A DNA stretch of 45,054 bases from an uncultured Pelagibacteraceae bacterium. Its GTDB lineage: Bacteria; Pseudomonadota; Alphaproteobacteria; Pelagibacterales; Pelagibacteraceae. This document shows, in pieces, positions 12,187 to 45,054 of the stretch (its first letter is position 1; the number at the start of each line of letters is the position of its first letter). The stretch lies in contig CACOCP010000008.1 of assembly GCA_902625715.1 (NCBI GenBank), positions 1 to 45,054 of the forward strand, written 5' to 3'. The notes under the pieces were generated by a model. That model did no database searches, was not told the origin of the DNA, and worked only from the letters and a program-made list of their open reading frames with translations. The position numbers and the translations under genes were made by a program.

Positions 12187-14625
12187 ATGAAAAGTTTACC
12201 AAAATCTTGCAAAGTTGTTGTTATTGGTGGAGGTGTTGTTGGAACTTCATGCTTATATCATTTAGCTAAATTTGGATGGAAAGATGTAATTTTACTAGAG
12301 AGAGATCAATTAACATCTGGAACTACTTGGCATGCTGCTGGATTAGTAAGTCAATTAGGTCCCTCAGCAGCTATCACTAAGATTAGAAAATACACACTGG
12401 ATTTATATAAAGAACTTGAAAAAAAAGTGGATCACTCACCGGGTTTAAGACTTAATGGTGCACTTTCAATTGCAGAAAATAAAGGTAGGTGGCAAGAATT
12501 ACAAAGACAAGCAACAACAGCACAACTTTATGATGTTGATGTACAAATTTTAGATAAAGACCAAATAAAAAAAAAGTATCCAATTGTAAATACTGATGAA
12601 GTTTTAGGTGGAATTTTAATGCCAGGTGATGGTGCTGCAGATCCATCAGGCGTGACACATATGCTGGCCAAAGCAGCAAAAATGGAAGGTGCTAAAATTT
12701 ATGAAAAGTCACCCGTAAAAGAAATTTTAACTAAGAAGGGAAGAATTTCTGGTGTTAGAGTAAATGATCATGTCATTGATTGTGAATATATAGTTCTTGC
12801 ATCAGGTATGTGGTCTAGACAAATTGGAGAAAAGGCTGGAGTTAGCATCCCTCTTTATCCAGCAGAACATTTTTATATTATCACTGAACCTATAAAAAAT
12901 CTTTCAAGCAATTTACCGGTGATAAGAGATTTTGATAATCGGACTTACATTAAAGAAGATGCAGGTAAAATATTGGTTGGAATTTTTGAGGGAAATTCAA
13001 TACCTGCATGGAATAAGACAAATGTAGTTCCTGAGGATTTCTCTTTCGGTGAATTTCAAGAAAATTTTGAACATTTTGAACCATATTTAAATTCTGCAAT
13101 TAAAAGATTTCCAGTTTTAGAAACAGCTGGAATTAGAAAGTTTTTTTCAGGTCCAGAGTCTTTTACGCCAGATACAAATACCCTTTTAGGTGAAGTTCCT
13201 GAAATTAAAAATTTTTTTGTATGCTGTGGTTTAAATAGTATTGGAATTGGGAGTGGGGGAGGTGTTGGAAAAGTAACAGCAGAATGGTTAATCAACGGCC
13301 ATATCAATGAAGATATATTTTCATATGATATAAAAAGATTTCAAAAATTTCATTCAGGGTTAGGATTTATTAAAGAGAGAATTACAGAGACACTTGGAGA
13401 TTTATATGGAATGCATTGGCCTTTTAAACAACATAAAACCTCTCGAGATCAAAAATTAACCCCATATCATGATGAAATGAAAAAAGCAGGTGCATGCTTT
13501 GGTGTAACAGGAGGCTATGAAAGACCGATGTGGTATGCACTTAATGGACAGAAATCAGAATATGAATACTCTTATAATTATCAAAACTGGTATCCTGCTG
13601 TTGAGTATGAGACTAAAAATACAAGAGAAAACGTTGGTTTGTTTGACCTAACCGCATTTTCAAAATATGACTTAAAAGGTAAAAATGTTCATTTTGAACT
13701 TCAAAAACTATGCACTGCCAACATCAAAAATGAACTTGGCAAAACTACATATACACAAATGTTAAATAAAGATGGTGGTATCGAAACTGATCTTACCGTG
13801 GTTTGTTTAGGTAAAGAATATTTTAGAATTATTACTTCTGCAGCTAACAGAGAAAGAGACAAATTTCATATTTTAAAATATTTGTCTCAAGACATAGATT
13901 TTAAAGATGTTACAGATGATATTGCATGTTTTGGTTTATTCGGTCCAAAAAGTGAAGATCTACTTCAAAAACTGACAAAAGATAATATCTCAAGAGAAAA
14001 TATTAACTTTGCATCTTTTAAAAAAATACAAATAGATAACATAGATGTTATTGTACAAAGATTATCTTATGTTGGTGAATATGGTTTTGAACTTTATATG
14101 GATATAAATAATTCAAAGAAAATTTTCAATTTAATTACTGATTATGGAAAAGAATTTAATTTATCTTTATGTGGCATGCATGCATTAGATACAATGCGAA
14201 TGGAAACAGGATTTTTACATTGGGGCCACGATATATCGCCTGAAGAAAATCAATATCAAGCAGGATTGAATTTCGCCATAAGTTTTAAGAAAAATGTAGA
14301 TTTTATCGGAAAAGACTCATTAGCTAAAATTAAAGGTAAACCTTTAGATAAACGTATGATGATGTTTACTTTAAAGGATAACCAACCAGGACAGCCTTTA
14401 TTACTTCATGATGAACCAATTTATTTAGATGATAAAATTATTGGTAGAACAACTTCAGGTAACTACTCATTTTGTTTTAATAAGAACTTGTCATTTGGAT
14501 ATGTAAACTCTGGAAACACAAAAGATACACTTATATATAAAAATATTTATATAGAGGTTGAAAAGAAGAAATACCCAGTAGATATATTGCAAAAACCTCT
14601 AAATCAAAAAAATTTTAGAAATTAA
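12187..14625 (+). CDS. Dimethylglycine/sarcosine dehydrogenase (FAD oxidoreductase + GcvT domain)
   Basis: 812 residues, the full DMGDH/SARDH size. N-terminal DAO domain with the dinucleotide motif VVVIGGGVVGTSCLYHL (10-26), ending in ERD (38-40), and SGTTWHAAG, in which His49 matches the histidine carrying covalent FAD in mammalian DMGDH. A linker (FAO_M-like, about 370-430) leads to a GcvT-like folate-binding half (from about 470: NVGLFDLTAFSKYDLKG, GEYGFELYMD, FIGKDSL). It oxidatively demethylates dimethylglycine or sarcosine and can pass the one-carbon unit to tetrahydrofolate. This fits SAR11 use of glycine betaine, whose importer lies about 20 kb downstream in this window. Its stop abuts the stop of guaC with no gap. 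Dimethylglycine versus sarcosine cannot be decided here. Confidence 0.9.
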   Translation: MKSLPKSCKVVVIGGGVVGTSCLYHLAKFGWKDVILLERDQLTSGTTWHAAGLVSQLGPSAAITKIRKYTLDLYKELEKKVDHSPGLRLNGALSIAENKGRWQELQRQATTAQLYDVDVQILDKDQIKKKYPIVNTDEVLGGILMPGDGAADPSGVTHMLAKAAKMEGAKIYEKSPVKEILTKKGRISGVRVNDHVIDCEYIVLASGMWSRQIGEKAGVSIPLYPAEHFYIITEPIKNLSSNLPVIRDFDNRTYIKEDAGKILVGIFEGNSIPAWNKTNVVPEDFSFGEFQENFEHFEPYLNSAIKRFPVLETAGIRKFFSGPESFTPDTNTLLGEVPEIKNFFVCCGLNSIGIGSGGGVGKVTAEWLINGHINEDIFSYDIKRFQKFHSGLGFIKERITETLGDLYGMHWPFKQHKTSRDQKLTPYHDEMKKAGACFGVTGGYERPMWYALNGQKSEYEYSYNYQNWYPAVEYETKNTRENVGLFDLTAFSKYDLKGKNVHFELQKLCTANIKNELGKTTYTQMLNKDGGIETDLTVVCLGKEYFRIITSAANRERDKFHILKYLSQDIDFKDVTDDIACFGLFGPKSEDLLQKLTKDNISRENINFASFKKIQIDNIDVIVQRLSYVGEYGFELYMDINNSKKIFNLITDYGKEFNLSLCGMHALDTMRMETGFLHWGHDISPEENQYQAGLNFAISFKKNVDFIGKDSLAKIKGKPLDKRMMMFTLKDNQPGQPLLLHDEPIYLDDKIIGRTTSGNYSFCFNKNLSFGYVNSGNTKDTLIYKNIYIEVEKKKYPVDILQKPLNQKNFRN

Positions 14626-34150: not shown

Positions 34151-34183
34151 AAAAAAGGGCCCTGAAATTAATCAAAGCCCTTT
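34149..34183. terminator. Bidirectional terminator between rpoZ and opuAC-type gene
   Basis: AAAGGGC (34154-34160) pairs with GCCCTTT (34177-34183). On the minus strand the hairpin is followed by a T-run of 8 (complement of 34149-34156) and clearly terminates the binding-protein gene ending at 34212. On the plus strand only a TTTAATTT tract follows, so rpoZ termination is weaker. Confidence 0.75.
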
Positions 34184-34211: not shown

Positions 34212-35216
34212 TTATTTTGGTATCCAGTTTTTCCATTTACCTGGATTAGCGTCTTTCCATTCTTTAACTACTTCTTTAAGATCTCTGTTCTTTTGTTTTA
34301 CTTCAACTAACATTACAGCTTGATCAGCATTATCAAACTTCATTTTTTTGAAGAATGCCGCCGCTTTAGCATGTTCTGGTTTTGCAAATGTAGCAGGGTT
34401 ACCATAGTTGAACGTGTAGTCTTTAGCCCAACCAGTTGCAGGCCATGCTGCAGTTCCACAATCTTTCCAGTTATTTGCTTCTGTAAACGAGTCGCAAGTT
34501 TTATGAGCAGGAAGTTGAACACCTACCATGTCGTATGCTCCAAAAAACCAATGTGGCTCCCAAAGATATAATAAAAATGGTTCTTTTCTTTCATAAGCAG
34601 CAACAGCCTCTGCAATCGCAGCAGCTTCTGTTCCAAGCTCATCAGCTTGGAAATCAATTCCTAAAAGATCTAATCTTTTTTGGTCATGACAGTTCCAACC
34701 AGCTACAGGACAACCAATTAGTCTTCCTTTGCCACCAGTTTCGATTGTTGCAAATTTAGCTTTATGTTTATTTAAATCTTTCCAAGTTTTAATTCCTAGA
34801 CTTTCAGCTGCATATCTTGGGATGTAGTAATCAGAAAGACCAATTATTCCAGTTGTACCTAAAAGTTCGACACTTCCATCACCCTCGTAATTGAACATTG
34901 TCTTACCATCATATACAAGTGGTCCTTTCATCATTACCGTGTCTGCTTCGGCATAACTTGGCCAACTTTCGCATGCAAAGTCAATTTCTCCAGCAGCAAT
35001 TGCTTCCCATAAACCTGTTCCAGATGGGAATACAACTCTTTTGACTTTGTATCCTAGTTCTTCCTCTAACATACTTACAGCAACTTGACATGTAATCTCT
35101 CCACCTGTCCAGTCAGCGACTGCTGCAGTCAATCTTTTAGCGTTGGCTTGAGTTAAACCTCCAACTAAAAGAACAAAAGATAATATCAAGGCTGAAATTG
35201 TTTTAGATAATTTCAT
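34212..35216 (-). CDS. Glycine betaine-type ABC substrate-binding protein (OpuAC family)
   Basis: 334 residues. Signal peptide cleaved after about 26 (ANA-K). OpuAC/ProX-like: VADWTGGEITCQVAVSMLEEELGY, FPSGTGLWEAIAAGEIDFACESWPSYAEAD (aromatic betaine cage region), LLYLWEPHWFFGAYDMV, and an EVKQKNRDLKEVVKEWKDANP end. It would capture trimethylammonium or dimethylsulphonium compatible solutes such as glycine betaine, TMAO-type compounds or DMSP; specificity needs binding data. Strong ribosome site (AGAGGAG). Separated from its permease gene by the bisC-like and DmdA-like genes. Confidence 0.9.
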   Translation of the reverse strand: MKLSKTISALILSFVLLVGGLTQANAKRLTAAVADWTGGEITCQVAVSMLEEELGYKVKRVVFPSGTGLWEAIAAGEIDFACESWPSYAEADTVMMKGPLVYDGKTMFNYEGDGSVELLGTTGIIGLSDYYIPRYAAESLGIKTWKDLNKHKAKFATIETGGKGRLIGCPVAGWNCHDQKRLDLLGIDFQADELGTEAAAIAEAVAAYERKEPFLLYLWEPHWFFGAYDMVGVQLPAHKTCDSFTEANNWKDCGTAAWPATGWAKDYTFNYGNPATFAKPEHAKAAAFFKKMKFDNADQAVMLVEVKQKNRDLKEVVKEWKDANPGKWKNWIPK

Positions 35217-35262
35217 TATTTCTCCTCTATTTAATTAATTAAATTTTCATTTTAGTTCAAAA

Positions 35263-35268
35263 ATTATA
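35263..35268 (-). promoter_or_regulatory. Probable -10 of the binding-protein gene
   Basis: Perfect TATAAT (complement of ATTATA) about 47 nt upstream of the opuAC-type ATG, with TTCAAT 18 nt upstream as a weak -35. The 177-nt gap 35217-35393 contains no gene; no recognisable riboswitch. It also holds the GAGGAG ribosome site (complement of 35221-35230 region). Confidence 0.4.
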
Positions 35269-35393
35269 GTTATGTAAACTTATAAAATTGAACCATTAAT
35301 AAGTTATAATGTTAGATTATTTGCTAATTTTAAGCGTAAAAAGTGTGGTCAATTGTTTCAATAACTAAATTATTAAAAAATTTATAACTAAAT

Positions 35394-36569
35394 TTAGGTT
35401 CTCTTTGGAATAGATCTATCCAGGCCTTTAACTATTCTTTTATCATGATCAAAAAAAGGTAATTTAACTACATTACAGTCATGAATTTTACCATTAGGTA
35501 ATTTTAACTTTAACTTTTTACCAGGCCACTCTTTTGGTTCGTGAAATCTTACATATCCAATTCCAAGTTTTAACGTAGGTGAGGGGACACCCGCAGTTAT
35601 ATGACCTACAATATTATCACCTTCCATAACTTTACTTCCTGAGGTAGGAGTATCAGTTGCACAAGTAACTCCAAATAAACATGTACCTTTATTTTTTTTG
35701 GATAAGGCTTCCCTTCCAATAAAATCACCTTTATCCATATTTACAAAAAAACCTAAACCAGCTTCAAATGGTGTCATCGTTGTATCTATATCAGTTAAAT
35801 TTCCAAATATTCCTCCCTCAATTCTTCTTATAGTCATTGCACGAGAGGATGATAGCTCCATCCCGTAAGGTTTCCCACATTCAATAAGATGATCCCAAAG
35901 AGCTAAGTGGTCTGTTTTATAACCATCTGAATAAATTTCAAACCCCAGTTCGTTTGTAAATCCAGTTCTTGAAACATATAGATCTTGTCCTCCAAGATTA
36001 AAAAAACCTGATCGAAAATAAGGCATGCTTTCATCAATATTTCCTTTTGATGCTTTTTTCATAATATCAATTGATGCAGGACCTTGAATTTGCAGAACTC
36101 TTGACTTTGGATCTGATATCTTCACATCAAAATTTTCACTATGTGCTAATAACCAATCTTCAAATGGACCGTCAGCCTGCACATACCAAAATTTATTATC
36201 ACTAAATTTAAAAATTACTCCATCCATAAAAATTCCACCTTGCGGGGTACACGCTAATGAATAATAACCTCTACCTTCTTTAATAGATGAAATTTTTCTT
36301 GTTAATATTTTTTCTAAAAAAGGAATTGCATCTTTACCTGATATCTCTACTGGTTTTTCTGGAACATCAAAAATTAACGCTTTCTGTCTTAGAAGCCAAT
36401 ATTTTTCAATTGCATCTTCTCCTATTGATATTGGAAAATATCTTCCTGCATAAACTCCACGAACCATTTTAGGACTATCTGTTCTTTCAATGTAAGGAGA
36501 TTCTTCAAATCTTCTTGCACTAATTTTAATAGTTTTGTTAAGATCTGATTCTTCTTGTAGATTTCCCAA
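35394..36569 (-). CDS. GcvT-family folate-dependent demethylase, DmdA-like
   Basis: 391 residues. GcvT/T-protein fold that hands a methyl or one-carbon unit to tetrahydrofolate. It parallels SAR11 DmdA in architecture: an N-terminal RR....SP segment, P..FR/Y.E..YW.LR....I.DV....VEI.GKDA in order (here ARRFEESPYIER, YWLLRQKALIFDVPEKPVEISGKDA), then GFTNELGFEIY, RRIEGGIFGN, TPFEAGL and DFIGREAL. However it clearly differs from the canonical DmdA (which I recall as about 369 residues), so it may be a paralogue for another methylated substrate, or a dimethylglycine/sarcosine-type demethylase. Third gene of the minus-strand operon proW-bisC-this gene. Confidence 0.82.
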   Translation of the reverse strand: MGNLQEESDLNKTIKISARRFEESPYIERTDSPKMVRGVYAGRYFPISIGEDAIEKYWLLRQKALIFDVPEKPVEISGKDAIPFLEKILTRKISSIKEGRGYYSLACTPQGGIFMDGVIFKFSDNKFWYVQADGPFEDWLLAHSENFDVKISDPKSRVLQIQGPASIDIMKKASKGNIDESMPYFRSGFFNLGGQDLYVSRTGFTNELGFEIYSDGYKTDHLALWDHLIECGKPYGMELSSSRAMTIRRIEGGIFGNLTDIDTTMTPFEAGLGFFVNMDKGDFIGREALSKKNKGTCLFGVTCATDTPTSGSKVMEGDNIVGHITAGVPSPTLKLGIGYVRFHEPKEWPGKKLKLKLPNGKIHDCNVVKLPFFDHDKRIVKGLDRSIPKRT

Positions 36570-36579
36570 TTTAATCTCT

Positions 36580-38910
36580 TTAATTTGTTTTTGCGTTAGA
36601 TCTTATAATTGAAGGTGGATCAAAGGCAGTTAATTTTGGAAGTTTATCATTATATTTTTCTATCTCAATAAGACAAGAATGTGCAATAGGACCTTGTCCA
36701 AGTTTAGATGTACCTTTGTCGGGTGTTAATACATTTGGATTACCGTGCTTACACATACTTTCATCTTCATCAGGATTTTCTGGATCATACCAAGCACCAG
36801 TACTCATCTGTACTACTCCTTGCATTATATTATTAGTGATTTTTACTCCAGCTAGGCAGGATCCTCTTTCATTAAACAATTTAACCACATCTCCGTCCCT
36901 CAGTTTGCGTTTACTTGCATCAATAGGATTGATTTCAAGAGGCTCTCTCTCGTTTATTTTAAATGACTTACTATACTTTCCATGATCCATTTGACTGTGT
37001 AATTTATTTTTAGGTTGATTTGATATTAAGTGAAGAGGATATTTTTTATCAACTTTACCTAGCCACTCACAAGGTTCGAACCACACTGGGTGTCCTGGAC
37101 AATCATCATAATTAAAATCAGCGACAGTTTTTGAAAAAATTTCAATCTTACCACTTGGTGTATTTAGTGGATTATTTTTTGGATCTTCTCTAAAATCTTT
37201 TAACATTATTGTTGGTTCTGATGGATCATTAATTTTAAACCATTTTTGCTCTCTAAATTTTTTATATTTAGGCATTTCAATATTTGCTACCGAAGCCCTT
37301 TCAAATGTTTGGTTATAAATCCATTCTTGCCACTCATCTTCACTTCTTCCTTGTGTAAATTTTTCTTCAATACCCATTTTTTTTGCAATATTTTTAAATA
37401 TTTCAAAATCATTTTTAGATTGTCCATAAGGTTCAATTATTTTATCCATAGATACAACAAATGGATCTCTAGGTGTCATCATTATGTCATTTCTTTCAAG
37501 AGGAGTGGTGCAAGGTAGAACAATATCAGATCTTTTTGCAAGTGTATTCCAACACCATTCGTTTGAAATTATTGTATCTGGTTTTTGCCACGCCTTAACA
37601 AGTCTATTTAAATCTTGATGATGATGAAAAGGATTTCCACCAGCCCAATAAACAATTTTTGTGTCAGGATAAACGTATGTTTTTCCATTAAAATCAAATT
37701 TTTTACCTGGTTGGAGTAGAAGATCACTTATTCTAGCAACTGGTATAAAATTTTCTATTTCATTTTCTGTTTGTGGAAAAGCTGCTCCAGGTAGAACTCT
37801 AAATTGACCACCTATAAAATTAGTAGCGCTATAACCAAAGCCAAATCCGCCTCCTGGTAATCCGATTTGACCAATCATTGAAGCAAGCATAATAGCCATC
37901 CAAAAAGGTTGTTCGCCATGATCTTGTCTCGTTAATGACCAACTAATGGAAATCATACTTCTTTTTTTTGAAATTTTTATGGCCAGTTCTTTAATTTTAG
38001 ACACAGAAATATTGCAAATAGCTGAAGCCCATTCAGCATTTTTTTCAACACCATCATTTTTTCCTAAAAGATATGGTAAAAATTTATCAAAACCTTCAGT
38101 ATATTTTTTTAAAAAGGCAGTATCACTAAGTCCTTCAGAATAAATTGTATGTGCTAAACCTAACATTAAAGCAGTATCTGTATTAGGTCTTGCTGCAATC
38201 CATTCACCATTTACTTCACTCATTAAGTCAGATTTCAATGGACTGATATTAATAAATTCTATACCTAAATTTGCTGAATCAATTAGATTTTCTTTTTGAT
38301 AATGATGTCCTGTGCCACCCTGAGAAATTTGACCATTCTTGATTGGAATTCCACCAAAACACAGAAAAACTTCAGTATTTTTTTTTATTGAGTCCCAACT
38401 TGTACAAGTATCCAGGTAAGCGCGATAACTTCCAAGAATATGTGGAACCATCGCTTCTGCAGCAGCGAAACTATAAGTAAATTTTGATCTAGTATATCCA
38501 CCAACACAATTTAAAAATCTGTGTAATTGACTTTGAGCATGATGAAATCTCCCAGCACTTGCCCATCCATATGAACCACCGAATATAGATGCGTTACCAT
38601 ATTTTTCTTTTACTCTATTAATTTCGTTTGCTACAAGTTCCTCTGCTCTGTCCCAACTTACTTCGACAAATGGTTCAATACCTCTTAGATTATTTTTTGT
38701 TCCTGGACCTCCTTCTAACCAACTTTTTCTAACCATTGGCTTATCTATTCGTGTTGGTCCATCAAGAATATCAATTATTCCTGATGCTATGGGAGAAGGA
38801 TCTTTGTCATATTCCCATCCAATAAGTTCTCTGAGCTTTCCATTTTTAACTTTGGCCCTGTAAGTTCCCCAGTGGTTGCTTGTTAAAGGCAGACCTTTAT
38901 CTTTGGTCAT
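36580..38910 (-). CDS. Cytoplasmic molybdopterin S/N-oxide reductase (BisC/DMSO reductase family)
   Basis: 776 residues, the same length as E. coli BisC (777) and without a Tat signal, so cytoplasmic. No N-terminal CxxCxxxC [4Fe-4S] ligands, a hallmark of type III DMSO reductases (BisC, TorA, DorA). GGSYGWASAGRFHH puts Ser118 at the position of the molybdenum-ligand Ser (Ser147 in Rhodobacter DMSO reductase). Later SYSFAAAEAMVPHILG, GGIPIKNGQ, ISWSLTRQDHGEQPFW and the C-terminal molydop-binding domain from about 640. Physiological substrate could be methionine- or biotin-sulphoxide, DMSO, TMAO or a sulphoxide/sulphoxonium osmolyte. Coupled (1-nt gap) to the permease gene, 10 nt before the DmdA-like gene. 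Confidence 0.88.
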   Translation of the reverse strand: MTKDKGLPLTSNHWGTYRAKVKNGKLRELIGWEYDKDPSPIASGIIDILDGPTRIDKPMVRKSWLEGGPGTKNNLRGIEPFVEVSWDRAEELVANEINRVKEKYGNASIFGGSYGWASAGRFHHAQSQLHRFLNCVGGYTRSKFTYSFAAAEAMVPHILGSYRAYLDTCTSWDSIKKNTEVFLCFGGIPIKNGQISQGGTGHHYQKENLIDSANLGIEFINISPLKSDLMSEVNGEWIAARPNTDTALMLGLAHTIYSEGLSDTAFLKKYTEGFDKFLPYLLGKNDGVEKNAEWASAICNISVSKIKELAIKISKKRSMISISWSLTRQDHGEQPFWMAIMLASMIGQIGLPGGGFGFGYSATNFIGGQFRVLPGAAFPQTENEIENFIPVARISDLLLQPGKKFDFNGKTYVYPDTKIVYWAGGNPFHHHQDLNRLVKAWQKPDTIISNEWCWNTLAKRSDIVLPCTTPLERNDIMMTPRDPFVVSMDKIIEPYGQSKNDFEIFKNIAKKMGIEEKFTQGRSEDEWQEWIYNQTFERASVANIEMPKYKKFREQKWFKINDPSEPTIMLKDFREDPKNNPLNTPSGKIEIFSKTVADFNYDDCPGHPVWFEPCEWLGKVDKKYPLHLISNQPKNKLHSQMDHGKYSKSFKINEREPLEINPIDASKRKLRDGDVVKLFNERGSCLAGVKITNNIMQGVVQMSTGAWYDPENPDEDESMCKHGNPNVLTPDKGTSKLGQGPIAHSCLIEIEKYNDKLPKLTAFDPPSIIRSNAKTN

Positions 38911-38911
38911 A

Positions 38912-41038
38912 CTAATTTGCGTCTAAGCCAAGTGCTTGTCTTTGTTTTTTTGTCCAGGCTAAAGTTATCCGATCAATTATTATAGCTAAAAGAACTATTC
39001 CTATACCCGCTGCTAAACCTCTTCCGGTATCTGATCTTGCTAAACCATTAAAAACCTCTAAACCTAATCCTTTACCACCAATCAGCGGTGTTACGATCTG
39101 CATTGCAAAAGCCATTACAACTGTTTGATTAAAACCTATAACTAAACTTGGAACAGCTAATGGAAACTTAATTTTTTTCAAGGTTTGAAAAAGTGTTCCT
39201 CCGAAAGATCTTGATACCTCTGAATATGTGCCTGATACTTGTGTTAATCCTAATGCGGTTAGTCTTATTATTGGTGGTATAGCGTATATGACTGTTGCAA
39301 GTACAGCTGAAACTATTCCTCCACCAAAAAACATTAAAACTGGTATCAAATAACAAAAATATGGAAGAGTTTGCATTGCATCTAGCACAACATTTAAAAC
39401 TTCCTTAAATCTTTGATTATAAGATGCGATAATCCCAAGCGGAACACCTATTGCAAAACACAAAACAACTGAAACTAAAACTGATGAAAGAGTTATCATT
39501 GATTGTGGCCAAATTCCACAAGCACCAATAAACAAAAGTAGTAATGCTGTAATAACTGCAAATCTTAAACCAACTGTAAAATAGCCAATCGCAACAAAAA
39601 CACTCATAGTATACCACCAAGGAATATGTGTTAAGAATGTATCAAGTGGTCTTAGTAAATTTAGATACACAAAAGCTCTTAAGCCCTTTGCAAACGCTAT
39701 GAAACCAGGATTAACAGTTAATGATTTAACTCCATCTGCAATAGGTTGCCTGATTGATAATTTCCATTCTTCAGGGAATGTCCCAATTGATATTAAGTAG
39801 CTGTCAATTAATGAAATTATTAAAAAAACTATAAAAGATGGTATGATATAATATCTTTTACTTAAAAAATCTCTTAAATCCTCAGCAAAGTCTTTATTAA
39901 AAAATAAAAAAATATTCCTAAAAACTATAGCAATAAAATTAGTTATATTTGTACAGACTAAATTTACAACAAAATGTAAATACAACAGAGGTTTTTCAAT
40001 AAATCTTGCGACTTGAAATTTTTCCCAACTTTGTGGCAAAAGATAAAATTCTTGTACATCTGATGGCAGCGTATCTTTTTGCTTTGTTAATGACATGCTA
40101 AATCTATCAAACATAATTGCCATAAATAATATACATAAACCACCTTCCATAGCCCAACCAACGTCGAGATTTCTAATTGCTAACCATACTTGACCACCAA
40201 TACCCTCTGCACCAATAAAGCAAGCCAGAACGACCAAAGCTAGTGCCATCATAATTACCTGATTAATTCCCATCATTATACTTGGTAAGGATAATGGAAT
40301 TTTTATTTTAAACAGCAATTGCAATTTACTAGATCCAAAAGATGTTGCAGATTCAATTGTATCCTTTGAAACTTGTCTTATGCCTGAATTTGTTAATCTA
40401 ATTACAGGGGGCATTGCATAAATCATAGTTGCTAAGATCGCGGGGGCACCTCCTATACCAAAAAAGAATAATGCAGGAAATAAATAGACAAATGCAGGCA
40501 TTACCTGCATTGTATCTAATATAGGTTTCATAAAACCATCAAAGCGATCACTTTGTGAGCACAACACACCAAGAATGACACCGAAAAAAACACACAACAA
40601 TACTGATAAACCCATGAGAGCAACCGTTTGAAGTGATTCATCCCACATTCCAACAGCACCCCAAAAGTAAATTACAAATAAAGAATACAATCCTAACCTT
40701 AGTCCTCCAGCTATTAAGCACGGTAAAAATATTATTGATGCTATTAATAACCAAGGTGAGTCAATTAAGAAATCTTCTAAAAAATAATATCCAGATTTAA
40801 TATATCCCGCTATAATTTTTGTAACCCATCTATAATTTTTCTTTAAATAGTCCTCTCCATCATTAACCCAAGCCGTAAATGTGAATTCATCAGTCACAAC
40901 TTTAGGAAGTTTTGACGGTCCCTCGCTTTGATTAGATAAAAAAAGCGCAATTATAAAGACTAATAATATTAATGAATAAGTCAGGATACTCTTTGTGGAG
41001 TTAGATTTATTAATAACTACAGTTTGTTCAGAAGACAT
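38912..41038 (-). CDS. Glycine betaine-type ABC permease, two ProW-like domains fused
   Basis: 708 residues, about 15-16 membrane helices. Two complete ProW/OpuAB-like permease halves: first about 125-300 (LILDTMQVMPAFVYLFPALFFFG, EGIGGQVW), second about 475-690 (VVLDAMQTLPYFCYLIPVLMFFGG, GGKGLGLEVFNG). Both have the EAA-type ATPase-contact region (TSFGSSKLQLLFKIKIPLS; RSFGGTLFQTLKKIKFPLA). A single polypeptide would replace the usual ProW homodimer. Divergent from the ATPase gene, with the operator-like dyad between. Confidence 0.9.
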   Translation of the reverse strand: MSSEQTVVINKSNSTKSILTYSLILLVFIIALFLSNQSEGPSKLPKVVTDEFTFTAWVNDGEDYLKKNYRWVTKIIAGYIKSGYYFLEDFLIDSPWLLIASIIFLPCLIAGGLRLGLYSLFVIYFWGAVGMWDESLQTVALMGLSVLLCVFFGVILGVLCSQSDRFDGFMKPILDTMQVMPAFVYLFPALFFFGIGGAPAILATMIYAMPPVIRLTNSGIRQVSKDTIESATSFGSSKLQLLFKIKIPLSLPSIMMGINQVIMMALALVVLACFIGAEGIGGQVWLAIRNLDVGWAMEGGLCILFMAIMFDRFSMSLTKQKDTLPSDVQEFYLLPQSWEKFQVARFIEKPLLYLHFVVNLVCTNITNFIAIVFRNIFLFFNKDFAEDLRDFLSKRYYIIPSFIVFLIISLIDSYLISIGTFPEEWKLSIRQPIADGVKSLTVNPGFIAFAKGLRAFVYLNLLRPLDTFLTHIPWWYTMSVFVAIGYFTVGLRFAVITALLLLFIGACGIWPQSMITLSSVLVSVVLCFAIGVPLGIIASYNQRFKEVLNVVLDAMQTLPYFCYLIPVLMFFGGGIVSAVLATVIYAIPPIIRLTALGLTQVSGTYSEVSRSFGGTLFQTLKKIKFPLAVPSLVIGFNQTVVMAFAMQIVTPLIGGKGLGLEVFNGLARSDTGRGLAAGIGIVLLAIIIDRITLAWTKKQRQALGLDAN

Positions 41039-41061
41039 AAATTGTTTAATTTAAATAAATA

Positions 41062-41082
41062 ATTTTACTTTTAAAGTAAAAT
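41062..41082. promoter_or_regulatory. 21-bp perfect dyad between permease and ATPase genes (candidate operator)
   Basis: ATTTTACTTT-T-AAAGTAAAAT: two 10-nt arms around one T, 23 nt upstream of the permease start and 27 nt upstream of the ATPase start. The ACTTT/AAAGT core rises above simple A/T runs. Symmetry and placement between divergent transport genes suggest a shared regulator-binding site. Confidence 0.45.
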
Positions 41083-41109
41083 ATTGTCTATTTCATATTA
41101 ACTTATTTA

Positions 41110-42156
41110 ATGTCTACAGAACAAAAAATCACTTGCTCGAATATCTGGAAGTTATTTGGTCCTGATGAAAAGAGAATAATCAAAAATTTAGACAAAAATT
41201 TATCAATCAAAGAAGTTCAAGAAAAAACAGGACATGTTGTTGCTGTTAAAGATGTAAGTTTTTCAATTGTAAAAGGTGAAACTTTTGTTGTGATGGGTCT
41301 TTCAGGAAGTGGTAAATCTACTTTAGTAAGATGTATTTCAAGATTAATAGAGCCAACTTCTGGAACTGTCAGAATGGATGATACAGATGTTACAAAAATG
41401 AGTAACAGCGAACTTTTAGATCTTAGAAGAAATAAGATGAGCATGGTCTTTCAACATTTTGGATTATTCCCACATCGGACTGTAATTGAAAATATTGGAT
41501 ATGGATTGGAAATTAGAGGAAGCAAAAAGCAAGATCGAATAGAAAAATCAATGGAAGTTTTAAAAATGGTGGGACTAGAGGGGTGGCATAATAATTACCC
41601 AAGAGAATTATCTGGAGGTATGCAGCAAAGAGTAGGTTTAGCTAGGGCGCTTGCTGTAGATCCAGAGATTTTAATTTTTGATGAACCTTTTTCTGCATTA
41701 GATCCTTTAATTAGAAGAGAGATGCAGGATGAATTACTTAAAATCCAAGATAAACTACAAAAAACTATGGTTTTTATTACTCACGATTTTCTAGAGGCAA
41801 TTAAAATGGGAGACCATATAGCAATAATGAAAGATGGAGAAGTTTCACAAGTTGGAACACCAGAAGAAATTGTTGCAAACCCTATCGATCAATATGTTAA
41901 GGATTTTTGTGAGGATGTTCCGAAGTATAAAGTTTTGAGCGCTGGAAAAGTTATGAGAAAAGAATGCTGTGATGATACAAAAAAACTTTATTCATCAAAA
42001 TCCGATTGTATTCCTGATAATTCTAAAATCGAGACCTTGATTGATAAACTTGTGGATACGGATAAAAAATTTCCAGTTATTTGTAATCAAACTGGAGATC
42101 TTCTAGGAGAAATTGACCGTTCTATTGTAATGAAATCAATGAAGTCTGCTAGTTAA
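41110..42156 (+). CDS. Glycine betaine-type ABC ATPase (ProV/OpuAA family)
   Basis: 348 residues. Walker A GLSGSGKST (about 62-70), Q-loop FQHFGLFPH, signature LSGGMQQRVGLARAL (about 167-181), Walker B ILIFDEPFSALDP (about 188-200), H-loop ITHDF. The N-terminal extension and FGPDEK-type opening match ProV, where the family's MSM-like insertion lies ahead of Walker A. The C-terminal about 80 residues (LSAGKVMRKECCDD...FPVICNQTGDLLGEIDR) are a shortened, Cys-containing CBS region; ProV is normally about 400 residues with two CBS domains that sense ionic strength. Convergent overlap of 8 nt with the DMT gene. Confidence 0.92.
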   Translation: MSTEQKITCSNIWKLFGPDEKRIIKNLDKNLSIKEVQEKTGHVVAVKDVSFSIVKGETFVVMGLSGSGKSTLVRCISRLIEPTSGTVRMDDTDVTKMSNSELLDLRRNKMSMVFQHFGLFPHRTVIENIGYGLEIRGSKKQDRIEKSMEVLKMVGLEGWHNNYPRELSGGMQQRVGLARALAVDPEILIFDEPFSALDPLIRREMQDELLKIQDKLQKTMVFITHDFLEAIKMGDHIAIMKDGEVSQVGTPEEIVANPIDQYVKDFCEDVPKYKVLSAGKVMRKECCDDTKKLYSSKSDCIPDNSKIETLIDKLVDTDKKFPVICNQTGDLLGEIDRSIVMKSMKSAS

Positions 42157-43081
42157 TTTGTTTATTTCCTTTAATACTTTTTTCATTAACTTTGTCCCTC
42201 CAAATTATTATCATACCTGCTAATATTATTGCTATTACTCCAGGAAAAAGTTGAGACCAAGGTGCTTCATTAAAAAAAATCCATCCTAATATAAATGATG
42301 ATGGTATTCCTAAATATTCAAATGATGCCATTTTACTCGCAGTTATTAATCTATAGGAAAAAATAAATAATATGGCAGCACTTCCACCAAGTATTCCTGT
42401 TAAAGTCATAAGAAAAAAATCCTGAAAATTTTTTATATCTTGATGACCAGTTGTAACAATAAATAATATTATGCCACCTAAAACATTAAAGATTAAAGTA
42501 TAGAGTTGAATTTTTGCTGTAGAGTGTCCTTCAGGAATAAATTTTAAAATTATAACTGACATAGCCCATGCTATTGCAGTTAATATTGGAAATATTGAGT
42601 AAAAATTAAAAATATCACTTGTTGGCTTCATAATCATTATCACACCAAGAAAGCCAACAAATATTGCCGACCATCTGTAAATTCCAACTTTGTCATTCAA
42701 AAAAAAAATAGAGAGAATAACTATAAAAAAAGGTGATGAAAAAGTTAGTGTCATGGCAGTAGCAAATTGAAGGTTAATAACTGATATAAATACGAAAATA
42801 TTCATAGCTAAAAAACAAATACCTCTCATTAAACTTAGGGATATAAATTTCTTACTAAGATTTTGAAATATCGAAAAATATTCTTTTGTAAATAAAATCA
42901 ACACAATTAAAGGTATTACTCCAGCTACATTCCTGAATACGGCTAATTGAAAAACACTGTAATCATCCCCTAAAAATTTTATAACTACCATATATAAATC
43001 AACACAAAGTATTGCCATTAACATTGTAATTATTGCTAAGTAAGTTTTCTTGATATCTACTTTTTCTGATGAAATATTCAT
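42149..43081 (-). CDS. DMT-superfamily transporter with two EamA domains
   Basis: 310 residues, about 10 helices in two EamA repeats: LAVFRNVAGVIPLIVLILF and QFATAMTLTFSSPFFIVILSIFF in the first; ILTAIAWAMSVIILKFI, GGSAAILFIFSYRLITASKMASFEYLGIPSSFILGWIFFNEAP in the second. Member of the RhaT/EamA drug/metabolite transporter group; substrate unknown. Ends 8 nt inside the convergent ATPase gene. Confidence 0.87.
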   Translation of the reverse strand: MNISSEKVDIKKTYLAIITMLMAILCVDLYMVVIKFLGDDYSVFQLAVFRNVAGVIPLIVLILFTKEYFSIFQNLSKKFISLSLMRGICFLAMNIFVFISVINLQFATAMTLTFSSPFFIVILSIFFLNDKVGIYRWSAIFVGFLGVIMIMKPTSDIFNFYSIFPILTAIAWAMSVIILKFIPEGHSTAKIQLYTLIFNVLGGIILFIVTTGHQDIKNFQDFFLMTLTGILGGSAAILFIFSYRLITASKMASFEYLGIPSSFILGWIFFNEAPWSQLFPGVIAIILAGMIIIWRDKVNEKSIKGNKQIN

Positions 43082-43120: not shown

Positions 43121-44311
43121 ATGCATAGATTTAAACTAGATAAAGATCATATACTATCAAATCAAGATTGGACTTTTCCTACTTTTACTGCATATGGACC
43201 TGGAAGATTTAAAGAGATTGGTAAATTTTGTAATAATTTTAATATATCAAATCCCCTAATAGTGACTGATAGTGGAAGTATAAAATTGCCTTTTATTTCT
43301 GAATTATCGAATTTGCTTTTAGATGCAAAAGTAAATTCAAATATTTATTCAAATATTTCTCCAAACCCAAGAGATGATGAAATAGACGGAGGATGTAAAA
43401 AATTTAAAGAAGGCAATCATGATGCAATAATTGCTATTGGCGGTGGTAGTGCTATGGACGGAGGTAAGGCAATATCATTAACTGTAAATAGCAATATTCC
43501 ACTATGGGATTTTGAGTTTGAACAAAAGCCAGTTGATTTAAAAGGGAAAAATCCTTTTCCAAAAATTATAACTATACCTACTACAGCTGGAACGGGAGCA
43601 GAGACCGAAATAACAGCAATGGTCACACATGTTGAGAAAGGAATGAAGTTTTGTCTATGGCACCCAGATGCAAGACCATGTTTAGCATTAGTAGATCCAG
43701 AGCTAACTTTAAAACTACCACCAAACTTAACAGCTTGGACTGGAATTGATGCAATGATACATGCTATTGAAGGCTACAGTGTACCAATGTTTCACCCTTT
43801 GTGTGATGGTTCAGCATTAGAAAGTTTATCATTAATTTCAAAATCACTTTATTTGGCAGTTGAGGAACCAGATAATTTACTTGCAAGAGGAGGAATGATT
43901 GTTGGTTCATATTTAGGTGGTGTTGCTTTTTTAAAAGGATTAGGATTAGTACATGCAATTTCACACATGGTAGGTGCAGAATATAATACTCACCATGGCT
44001 TAACAAATGCTATTATTTTACCTACAGTTATGAATTATAATTTACCTGGCTTAGAAGAAAAAGTTAAAAGGATGTCTGAAGCCATGCAATTTGAAGATCA
44101 CTCAATAGACGGATTTAAAAATAATCTTAATAAAATGCTTGATAGATTAAAGATACCAAAAGGCTTAAACGAAATAGGAGTTCCAGAAGATTGCTATGAA
44201 AGAATTGCAAAGAAATCCATGTTAGACCAAGCCTATGGACAGAACCCAAAAAAAGCAAATTTAGATGAATTAAATGAATTAGTAATAAATAGTATAAAAA
44301 AAGCACGTTAG
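43121..44311 (+). CDS. Iron-type (group III) alcohol dehydrogenase
   Basis: 396 residues. NAD-binding GGGSAMDGGKAISL at about 108-121, TIPTTAGTGAETEITAM, and the metal site GIDAMIHAIEGY (Asp and His), GLVHAISHMVGAEYNTHHGLTNA (two more His). N-terminal sequence (WTFPTFTAYGPGRFKEIG) is typical of the family. It oxidises an alcohol or reduces an aldehyde; substrate unassigned. Two ATGs occur; the one at 43108-region lies out of frame, so the ATG at 43121 is used. Followed 5 nt later by an amidase, perhaps one operon. Confidence 0.9.
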   Translation: MHRFKLDKDHILSNQDWTFPTFTAYGPGRFKEIGKFCNNFNISNPLIVTDSGSIKLPFISELSNLLLDAKVNSNIYSNISPNPRDDEIDGGCKKFKEGNHDAIIAIGGGSAMDGGKAISLTVNSNIPLWDFEFEQKPVDLKGKNPFPKIITIPTTAGTGAETEITAMVTHVEKGMKFCLWHPDARPCLALVDPELTLKLPPNLTAWTGIDAMIHAIEGYSVPMFHPLCDGSALESLSLISKSLYLAVEEPDNLLARGGMIVGSYLGGVAFLKGLGLVHAISHMVGAEYNTHHGLTNAIILPTVMNYNLPGLEEKVKRMSEAMQFEDHSIDGFKNNLNKMLDRLKIPKGLNEIGVPEDCYERIAKKSMLDQAYGQNPKKANLDELNELVINSIKKAR

Positions 44312-44316
44312 CTTTT

Positions 44317-45054
44317 ATGCTTGATAGCCTTACAGCTGAACAAATTATTAATAAAATTAAACAAAGAAAAGTATCCGTAAAAGAAGTTGTTGAATATTAT
44401 CTAGATAGGATAGAAAGAATTAATCCTAAACTTAATTCAATTATTCTTCAAAAAGATAGAGATTTAATTTTAAAAGAGGCAACAGAAAAAGATAATTTAA
44501 AAAAAATAGATAACATTATTTGCGGTATGCCAATCGCAGTAAAAGACCTTTCTGACGTTGTTGGATATAAAACCACCTATGGTTTCCCAGGATCAAAAAA
44601 TAACTTTCCAAAAAAAAATTCATTGTATGTGGATAAATTAATTAATAATGGAGCCATTATAATTGGAAAAACTAATACTGCAGAGCTTGGTGTTGGCGGG
44701 CATACTATAAATAGGTTATTCGGACCTACATCAAATGTTTATGATTTTTCAAAATCTTCAGGTGGGTCTAGTGGAGGAGCAAGTTCAGCAGTCGCTGCGG
44801 ATTTACTTCCATTTGCTGATGGAACTGATCAAATGGGATCATGTAGAGGGCCTGCAGCTTATGCAAATATTTATGGTTTTAGACCAACAATTGGTTTAAT
44901 TGCTGTGGATCGAACAGCCCAAAATATTGATTTACCTATTTTAACTACACCAGGATGTTTTGCAAAAACACCAAACGATTTGTCTATTTTTTTAGACTCA
45001 ATTGTTGGAAGCAACTCATTAGATAAATTCTCATTTGATTTAAATGACAATTTT
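44317..45054 (+). CDS. Amidase signature enzyme, N-terminal part (cut by window edge)
   Basis: 246 residues from ATG 44317, running off the right edge. Amidase signature family (GatA-like): CGMPIAVKDLSDVVGY with catalytic Lys (about 74), GKTNTAELGVGGH, SSGGSSGGASSAVAADL with cis-Ser, and DGTDQMGSCRGPAAYANIYGFRPT with the nucleophile Ser. Full proteins are about 450-500 residues. It differs from GatA in the linker before the SGG motif and stands alone, so it is more likely a catabolic amidase than the glutamyl-tRNA subunit. Starts 5 nt after the alcohol dehydrogenase stop. Confidence 0.88.
   Translation, partial: MLDSLTAEQIINKIKQRKVSVKEVVEYYLDRIERINPKLNSIILQKDRDLILKEATEKDNLKKIDNIICGMPIAVKDLSDVVGYKTTYGFPGSKNNFPKKNSLYVDKLINNGAIIIGKTNTAELGVGGHTINRLFGPTSNVYDFSKSSGGSSGGASSAVAADLLPFADGTDQMGSCRGPAAYANIYGFRPTIGLIAVDRTAQNIDLPILTTPGCFAKTPNDLSIFLDSIVGSNSLDKFSFDLNDNF

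Follow-up and report, generated by a model that had tools for sequence, protein, structure and literature searches.

What would a betaine-type importer of an uncultured Pelagibacteraceae bacterium do with a leaderless molybdoenzyme and a GcvT-family protein encoded in its own operon? The question is raised by a 45,054-nucleotide stretch of DNA (positions 1 to 45,054 of contig CACOCP010000008.1, assembly GCA_902625715.1; hereafter the window), in which the genes for a molybdopterin enzyme (MoX) and a GcvT-family protein (GcvTx) lie between the permease and substrate-binding protein (SBP) genes of an ATP-binding cassette (ABC) importer. The genetics of this pair and its slot are clear, while the chemistry has to be inferred from sequence: we give a probability of roughly 0.45 to the reading that this is a betaine-class ABC importer operon of the SAR11 group with an optional two-gene catabolic module, MoX and GcvTx acting on one compound. 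The constituent families are known and their combination is new; among the open-licence PMC papers listed by our searches, none concerned this pair in SAR11. The five genes concerned are the following.

34212 to 35216, minus strand: SBP, substrate-binding protein of the ProX/OpuAC type (334 aa; PF04069; N-terminus resembling a signal peptide by eye)
35394 to 36569, minus strand: GcvTx, third-clade member of the GcvT (aminomethyltransferase) family (391 aa; TTG start; GCV_T and GCV_T_C)
36580 to 38910, minus strand: MoX, molybdopterin enzyme of the S/N-oxide reductase type (776 aa; nearest model TIGR00509; Molybdopterin and Molydop_binding)
38912 to 41038, minus strand: permease with two fused BPD_transp_1 domains (708 aa)
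41110 to 42156, plus strand: importer ATPase, divergent from the permease (348 aa; ABC_tran; proV family TIGR01186)

The initial annotation of this DNA had described the same five genes, and the list of open reading frames (ORFs) confirms their coordinates, strands and close spacing (1 nt between permease and MoX, 10 nt between MoX and GcvTx, 177 nt between GcvTx and SBP); the permease is indeed a fused double one, with two BPD_transp_1 stretches. A scan of genome contigs with MoX yielded 69 loci, 68 of them with at least 1.2 kb of downstream sequence, and GcvTx is the next gene downstream on the same strand in 53 of the 68. The 15 loci without it belong to distant groups (53–61% identity) from Rhodobacteraceae, Rhizobiaceae and an 11-member group with a downstream peroxidase gene. 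The permease lies directly upstream of MoX in all 51 of the 53 GcvTx loci that have upstream sequence, which bears out the permease-MoX-GcvTx operon proposed earlier; the ATPase gene is divergent from the permease in 45/46 pair loci and the SBP gene is at most three genes away in 48/49, the exception being L081. Among 297 sampled Pelagibacteraceae genomes, MoX is present in five, and GcvTx at 80% identity or more in exactly those five, with 25 further GcvTx matches at 36–39% identity. The same arrangement recurs outside the window's family, in G553 and in the L035 group. The dN/dS ratios of MoX and GcvTx against four orthologs are about 0.06–0.13, with dS partly near saturation, and both genes are thus under strong purifying selection.

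The importer itself is far more widespread than the pair. SBP is found in 35 of the 297 genomes, and 30 of these lack MoX and GcvTx. One of the 30 pair-less loci (L280) is unreadable for adjacency, as its contig starts inside the SBP gene; in the other 29, the permease and SBP genes adjoin with a gap of 56–168 nt, the ATPase is followed by the genes for an EamA-type transporter, an iron-containing alcohol dehydrogenase (FeADH) and an amidase in the order seen in the window, and neither MoX nor GcvTx was found. Moreover, the SBP nearest to that of the window (93%) comes from a pair-less genome. On an SBP tree of 41 rows, pair presence changes seven times at least cost, four of the changes being forced by well supported branches; none of 500 shuffles was as low, a result to which near-copies contribute. 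On a permease tree of 40 rows it changes four times, three of them forced. (Both trees omit 32 loci of two near-identical groups, removed by hand, as well as L129–L132, L141, too-short rows, L280 and L281–L288.) The region upstream of SBP, including a promoter-like TTTACA/TAAAAT motif, can be aligned whether or not a locus has the pair. Because the state changes repeatedly while the SBP and its upstream region stay alike, the pair is best described as an optional insert, gained or lost jointly, in an importer that keeps its kind with or without it. Two claims of the initial annotation are therefore given up: the five genes are not one conserved unit, and the importer is not built around the enzymes, which slotted into, or were lost from, its operon. 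The conserved part is the importer together with the adjoining EamA, FeADH and amidase genes. Further features of the locus are these.

42149 to 43081, minus strand: EamA-type transporter going with the importer island (in 7 of 16 genomes compared)
43121 to 44311, plus strand: FeADH of the importer island (in the same 7 of 16 genomes)
44317 to 45054, plus strand: amidase, truncated by the window end, starting an amidase-EamA2(-homocysteine methyltransferase-like) block known from relatives
41062 to 41090, minus strand: promoter-like site upstream of permease-MoX-GcvTx (by match to the consensus only)
35249 to 35278, minus strand: promoter-like site TTTACA-18-TAAAAT before SBP (alignable whether or not the pair is present)
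34154 to 34183, minus strand: terminator-like hairpin downstream of SBP (12 pairs, T tail)

EamA (E <= 1e-40) and FeADH (at least 70%) are present in seven of the 16 genomes compared, namely the six with the pair and G069, where the importer occurs without it, and are absent from the other nine, where FeADH matches reach 50% (G326) or 36–38%; they are therefore counted as part of the importer island. Since SBP has its own conserved promoter-like site, it need not share a transcript with permease-MoX-GcvTx, although promoter-like sites overall are not in excess (40 versus 48.8 in shuffles); terminator-like sites number 8 versus 4.5. The TTG start of GcvTx falls where its orthologs begin with ATG. 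The single Rfam match, below threshold (27.9 of 50 bits) and within the permease gene, was taken as chance. Gene calls at the compared loci are longest-ORF heuristics, with a rule based on GC content at third codon positions (GC3) for GC-rich loci, where annotations are rough. The FeADH-amidase-EamA2 block (43121 to 45054 and beyond, often accompanied by a homocysteine methyltransferase-like gene) goes with the importer island and hints that the substrate may be hydroxylated or contain an amide. Elsewhere in the window (12187 to 14625) lies an 812-aa DAO and GcvT protein resembling dimethylglycine/sarcosine dehydrogenase; the 1.16-Mb genome has 10 GcvT-family matches in all, this protein among them.

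GcvTx has the folate-binding fold of the GCV_T superfamily (PF01571, 153.8 bits), but its NCBIfam scores are level and all far below cut-off: 181.9 bits for the C-terminal domain of Tdm (cut-off 1100), 166.8 for GcvT NF001567 (300) and 166.4 for DmdA NF009133 (410), with 140.2 bits on TIGR00528 (235.85). It aligns to positions 401–762 only of the Tdm model, and Pfam gave no DUF1989 match. A 33-row tree separates DmdA and its kin, a group of GcvT, DMGDH-like, SoxA and Tdm domains, and a third clade (100/99) that holds GcvTx together with relatives from other Alphaproteobacteria; a 35-row quick tree agrees, and both contain some long branches, of which the program warns in the GcvT/DMGDH-like/SoxA/Tdm group. 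The DmdA-like demethylase of the initial annotation survives only in part. The N-terminus does resemble DmdA, the dimethylsulphoniopropionate (DMSP) demethylase, whose structure 3tfh is also the best single-sequence PDB match (E 1.3e-38) and shares the GcvT fold. However, GcvTx as DmdA is ruled out by its score, by its clade and by two other proteins of the same genome that reach 570.5 and 522.8 bits on the DmdA model; GcvTx further differs by a C-terminal extension and by Glu207, the Glu of the GcvT/Tdm motif, which the third clade keeps and which is Gln in this genome's two DmdAs. All 53 pair-locus GcvTx proteins have Phe204 at the position of the DMSP-site Trp of DmdA (W171 in the numbering of the excerpted text of PMC7487153), which we mapped ourselves by constant offset to Trp197 of 3tfh and where the genome's second DmdA has Tyr. 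Nor is GcvTx a plain GcvT, as the initial proposal had rightly supposed: its score and separate clade speak against it, and the likely GcvT of the genome (L001, the best PF01571 match) is placed elsewhere in the tree. Judged from these comparisons, GcvTx is a member of a third, uncharacterised clade. Fold comparison was discarded as a discriminator of subtype, because the predicted structure (pLDDT 88) matches DMGDH, DMGO, DmdA, two T-proteins and SoxA alike (Z 41.0–42.0, tied, in a list that contained no Tdm entries).

Known systems offer partial parallels. Tdm, the trimethylamine N-oxide (TMAO) demethylase (9q5a), and DMGDH/DMGO likewise link a folate-binding GcvT module with another activity directed at a methylated nitrogen compound, whereas GcvTx has no DUF1989 or FAD domain, is a separate gene and has a molybdoenzyme as its partner. 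The uncharacterised SAR11 aminomethyltransferases SAR11_1265 and SAR11_1303 (excerpt of PMC3160333) are also GcvT-like, with unassigned substrates and one of them near opuA-type genes; by the description there, they occur in all three Ia genomes of that study, whereas GcvTx with MoX is rare. A GcvT paralog on another contig of the window's genome (C12) may belong with this type. That paralog, a third-clade protein, lies in L127 (G000:C12:1-18000), where Pfam also assigns an ABC importer of the peptide type (SBP_bac_5), an FMN_dh protein, a thiamine pyrophosphate (TPP) enzyme and a Transthyretin-family protein and where a second DmdA is encoded, a cluster largely repeated in L142 and L144. Other third-clade genes stand beside an OpuAC importer without MoX (L136), SDRs and an SBP_bac_8 protein (L134) or an SBP_bac_8 protein (L135). 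The nearest relative outside pair loci (47%) belongs to a 20-kb cluster, L133 (G326:C1:1215000-1234900), with sarcosine-oxidase-like DAO and SoxA-like ORFs, a Tmm-type flavin-containing monooxygenase (FMO), a GbcA-like Rieske protein, Tdm and an OpuAC importer. SAR11 is said in the excerpted text of PMC8918994 to lack dmmDABC for the dimethylamine step, for which the Rieske protein or the GcvTx relative of L133 is a candidate. At class level, third-clade relatives of GcvTx (E <= 1e-60) are found in 9/289 genomes, five of which encode a relative of MoX as well. Away from pair loci the two genes are not adjacent, lying 29 kb apart in G555 and 38 kb apart in G330.

MoX scores best on the bisC_fam model TIGR00509 (970.9 bits over positions 12–769, below the cut-off of 1017.55), followed by TorA (743, cut-off 909), and is 38–40% identical to E. 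coli BisC, TorZ and TorA. The Mo-ligand serine had been called intact, and Ser118 (SYGWAS118AGR) is invariant in 19/19 aligned proteins; MoX also keeps Tyr114, a residue that TorA lacks and that we take to favour S-oxides. As noted before, no Tat (twin-arginine) leader is seen, the MoX start coinciding with that of BisC in an alignment judged by eye with no signal predictor run. In a 24-row tree, MoX groups with homologs of Roseobacters, Rhizobiales, Vibrio and Pantoea, and a 100/100 branch divides this group from E. coli BisC, TorZ and TorA, E. coli BisC being the only proven BisC included; this separation from biotin-sulphoxide reductase is one on which the earlier hypothesis depended. The best PDB chain is 7l5i (696 bits), labelled TMAO reductase and presumably MtsZ, with dimethyl sulphoxide (DMSO) reductase chains at 686–692 bits and other TMAO reductases at 589–592. 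MoX thus shares with BisC, TorZ, DMSO reductase and 7l5i the molybdopterin family, the Ser ligand and the SYGW motif, and is leaderless like BisC, yet it sits within an importer operon and on its own branch. By sequence, it is an enzyme of the S/N-oxide reductase type that lacks a leader and is distinct from E. coli BisC, TorZ and TorA.

Homologs of MoX outside the pair loci were surveyed at 44 loci (20 class-wide, 15 from the contig scan, nine on plasmids; some stretches are short, and neighbours were read in 8/20 class-wide loci). Their contexts are mixed, and the idea that such homologs generally accompany methyl-thio genes was abandoned. Near-identical clusters on plasmids of Phaeobacter inhibens (L222, 11218–25797) and Tritonibacter (L224, 7292–21865) hold a MoX homolog and a third-clade GcvT (34–35% to GcvTx) within 15 kb, together with a coenzyme A (CoA) ligase 8 nt upstream of MoX, a crotonase, an ALDH, an SDR, a TRAP transporter and a GbdR-like regulator (278 bits, cut-off 480). 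A Ponticoccus plasmid operon (L225, 9219–14669) joins the MoX homolog to mtnA and genes for an amidohydrolase, a purine nucleoside phosphorylase and a RuBisCO-like protein, which suggests reduction of an oxidised methylthio-nucleoside or -sugar, and in a Rhizobiaceae locus an MtoX-like protein (160 bits, cut-off 650) is encoded nearby. Other homologs adjoin choline-dehydrogenase-like, formamidase-like, TRAP or peroxidase genes; in 11 loci (53–55% to MoX) a 720-aa katG-like peroxidase gene follows the homolog (one tested, PF00141). On a Vibrio pelagius plasmid (L226, 843–9176) proVWX, folM/folE/folX/folK and the MoX homolog stand in a row, with katG nearby. Finally, a homolog in L261 (5209–8865; 54%) lies beside two small genes reminiscent, in our view, of sulphopyruvate decarboxylase subunits; Pfam gives TPP_enzyme_C for one and no match for the other (E <= 1e-8).

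By its models the importer is of the ProU/OpuA betaine type: SBP scores 147 bits on PF04069 (cut-off 21.2) and the ATPase 366.7 bits on TIGR01186 (326.6). The permease reaches 420.8 bits on the choline permease equivalog TIGR03416 (363), a score summed over its two fused domains. Alignment places Trp36, Trp85, Trp174, Tyr217, Trp219 and Ser128 in the SBP pocket, all invariant in 22/22 SBPs. In profile alignments to 4xz6 and 7yle the four cage Trp and the Tyr are kept, and Glu131 of TmoX and Glu113 of DmpX fall on Ser128. The counterpart of Glu131 in HTCC1062 TmoX, Glu114, is needed for TMAO binding, which its change to Ala abolishes (PMC8918994, excerpt). TmoX (4xz6), of the TMAO importer TmoXWV, is the best PDB match of SBP (E 2.6e-16) and shares its OpuAC type and aromatic cage; the present system differs in Ser128, in having no tdm or FMO gene adjacent in the window and in the presence of MoX-GcvTx in some genomes. 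The DMSP importer DmpXWV (7yle) has the same Trp cage and, two positions ahead of its final Trp, the same Tyr (Tyr200, equivalent to Tyr217 of SBP), but 7yle matches by only 31 bits by profile and has Glu113 at the place of Ser128. This Tyr is not diagnostic of a DMSP importer, since the ProX chain 1r9l has it too. We take 7yle to be RnDmpX, as its Trp35 and Glu113 agree with the positions given for that protein (PMC10030565, excerpt). SBP also has a ProX-like GC..GW.C stretch matching 1r9l. This site, we assume, holds the betaine carboxylate in ProX. The AlphaFold model of SBP (mean pLDDT 60, shallow alignment) is too poor for fold search or docking.

The genes around the importer point to catabolism of carnitine or gamma-butyrobetaine. 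In the 29 readable pair-less loci, its side carries BBOX-like (25), SDR (27), LcdH-like (26), BKACE (23) and thioesterase (18) genes; the BBOX, LcdH, BKACE and SDR labels are BLAST matches to one reference ORF each, all but SDR under model cut-offs where these exist, and BKACE rests on 240 of 382 bits and a DUF849-type start. Because these genes adjoin the importer, its main ligand may reasonably be guessed to be a carboxylated betaine, for instance carnitine or butyrobetaine. A survey of L200–L218 and L280–L288 showed that the content of the DNA flanking the importer on its SBP side varies, often including BBOX, SDR, LcdH-like, BKACE, thioesterase, CitE-like and GMC oxidoreductase genes, a set like that for gamma-butyrobetaine or carnitine.

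How, then, might the pair work? In the reading we prefer, a compound would enter the cytosol through this importer, MoX would reduce its S-oxide or N-oxide there, and GcvTx would pass a one-carbon unit (methyl or methylene) of the same compound, reduced or still oxidised, to tetrahydrofolate; the position of the pair between permease and SBP would allow its co-production with the importer. The preferred substrate class would comprise carboxylate-bearing osmolytes of the oxidised sulphonium or methyl-thioether type, dimethylsulphoxonium propionate (DMSOP) among them. With DMSOP, GcvTx could take the sulphoxonium methyl and MoX reduce the resulting 3-methylsulphinylpropionate to 3-methylmercaptopropionate, or the steps could be reversed. 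The two reactions would join well for a sulphoxonium compound, because the methyl groups of sulphonium and sulphoxonium compounds are readily donated, and CH3-S(O)-R groups, as in methionine sulphoxide, are a known substrate type of BisC/MtsZ-like enzymes. Coupled reduction and one-carbon transfer on an oxidised betaine-class compound, with a DMSOP-like one favoured, is plausible, and the chain of import, reduction and demethylation put forward by the initial annotation keeps its standing as a hypothesis. The narrower version, in which the pair would serve reductive demethylation of DMSOP or a like sulphoxonium/sulphinyl osmolyte, with GcvTx as a non-DmdA sulphoxonium/sulphonium demethylase and MoX as a dedicated cytosolic oxide reductase, we consider rather unlikely. 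As support for the broader reading we count the strict pairing, the fixed slot, joint gain and loss, Tyr114 of MoX, the GcvT fold, the SBP cage with its GC..GW.C stretch, the methyl-thio contexts in Ponticoccus and Rhizobiaceae (MtoX-like) and the Roseobacter plasmid cluster joining MoX to a third-clade GcvT.

Several observations weigh against this reading. No electron donor for MoX is encoded in the operon and none was identified. MoX relatives are common (56/289 alphaproteobacterial genomes at E <= 1e-100), and a GcvT-family ORF lies near non-pair homologs in 0/35 genome loci and 2/9 plasmid loci. Phe204, on our own mapping, departs from the DMSP-site Trp of DmdA; the company of Tdm and a Tmm-type FMO in L133 favours N-methyl chemistry; and genes of the carnitine/gamma-butyrobetaine type adjoin the importer. 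Finally, the importer is mostly without the pair and its SBP is alike in both states, so the substrate of the module need not be the importer's main ligand.

The N-methyl context leads to the alternative that the pair acts on TMAO or another tertiary amine N-oxide, which MoX would reduce and from which GcvTx would transfer a one-carbon unit, in parallel to the DUF1989 and GcvT domains of Tdm. The TMAO reductase label of 7l5i speaks for it, though DMSO reductase chains score as high, and so does L133, where the GcvTx relative lies beside Tdm (1163 bits, cut-off 1100), an FMO-like ORF, the GbcA-like Rieske protein and an OpuAC importer. We nevertheless regard it as unlikely: MoX has the Tyr114 missing from TorA, and the Glu on which TmoX depends is Ser128 in 22/22 SBPs. 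Furthermore, Tdm-size DUF1989 ORFs (762–786 aa) occur in 5/6 and Tmm-size FMO-like ORFs in 4/6 pair-bearing genomes, so that most of these would run a futile cycle if they reduced TMAO to trimethylamine. Neither ORF is present in the genome of the window, which is 88% complete; across the 16 genomes, DUF1989 is found in 15 and Tdm-size ORFs in 12. TMAO as a plain substrate, one of the candidates of the initial annotation, is thus disfavoured. Another of them, methionine sulphoxide, suits MoX but not a betaine-type importer, while DMSOP-type compounds remain candidates.

Free methionine sulphoxide, or biotin sulphoxide, arising from oxidative damage would be the substrate if MoX were a repair or housekeeping enzyme, GcvTx mopping up formaldehyde or tuning one-carbon flow and the importer operon serving expression only. 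The katG-like genes behind the MoX homolog in 11 loci and near it in Vibrio pelagius, and the scarcity of GcvT near most homologs, fit such a role, which appears improbable given the strict pairing and constant slot in the importer operon and the absence of the pair from 292/297 sampled family genomes, unlike a housekeeping trait. Least likely, in our estimate, is that betaines of the carnitine class are taken up by the importer while the pair acts on a methylated amine, or its N-oxide, formed downstream. The carnitine-type genes in most of the 29 pair-less loci would be explained, as would their presence in some pair loci, including SDR and BKACE between GcvTx and SBP in the L035 group. However, the window, L014, L199 and L216 have no such genes beside the importer, these genes fill a separate variable spot on the SBP side, and we know of no carnitine step that needs an oxide reductase.

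Taken together, these results make importer and enzymes separate evolutionary layers, and the ligand of SBP alone will therefore not settle the substrate of the pair. Near-identical importers with and without the pair provide a natural comparison, and the question is directly testable with two enzymes and one binding protein. The importer with the pair may let some SAR11 bacteria use an oxidised methylated compound; if the DMSOP route is true, SAR11 could salvage both the methyl groups and the reduced sulphur of oxidised DMSP rather than losing it as DMSO.

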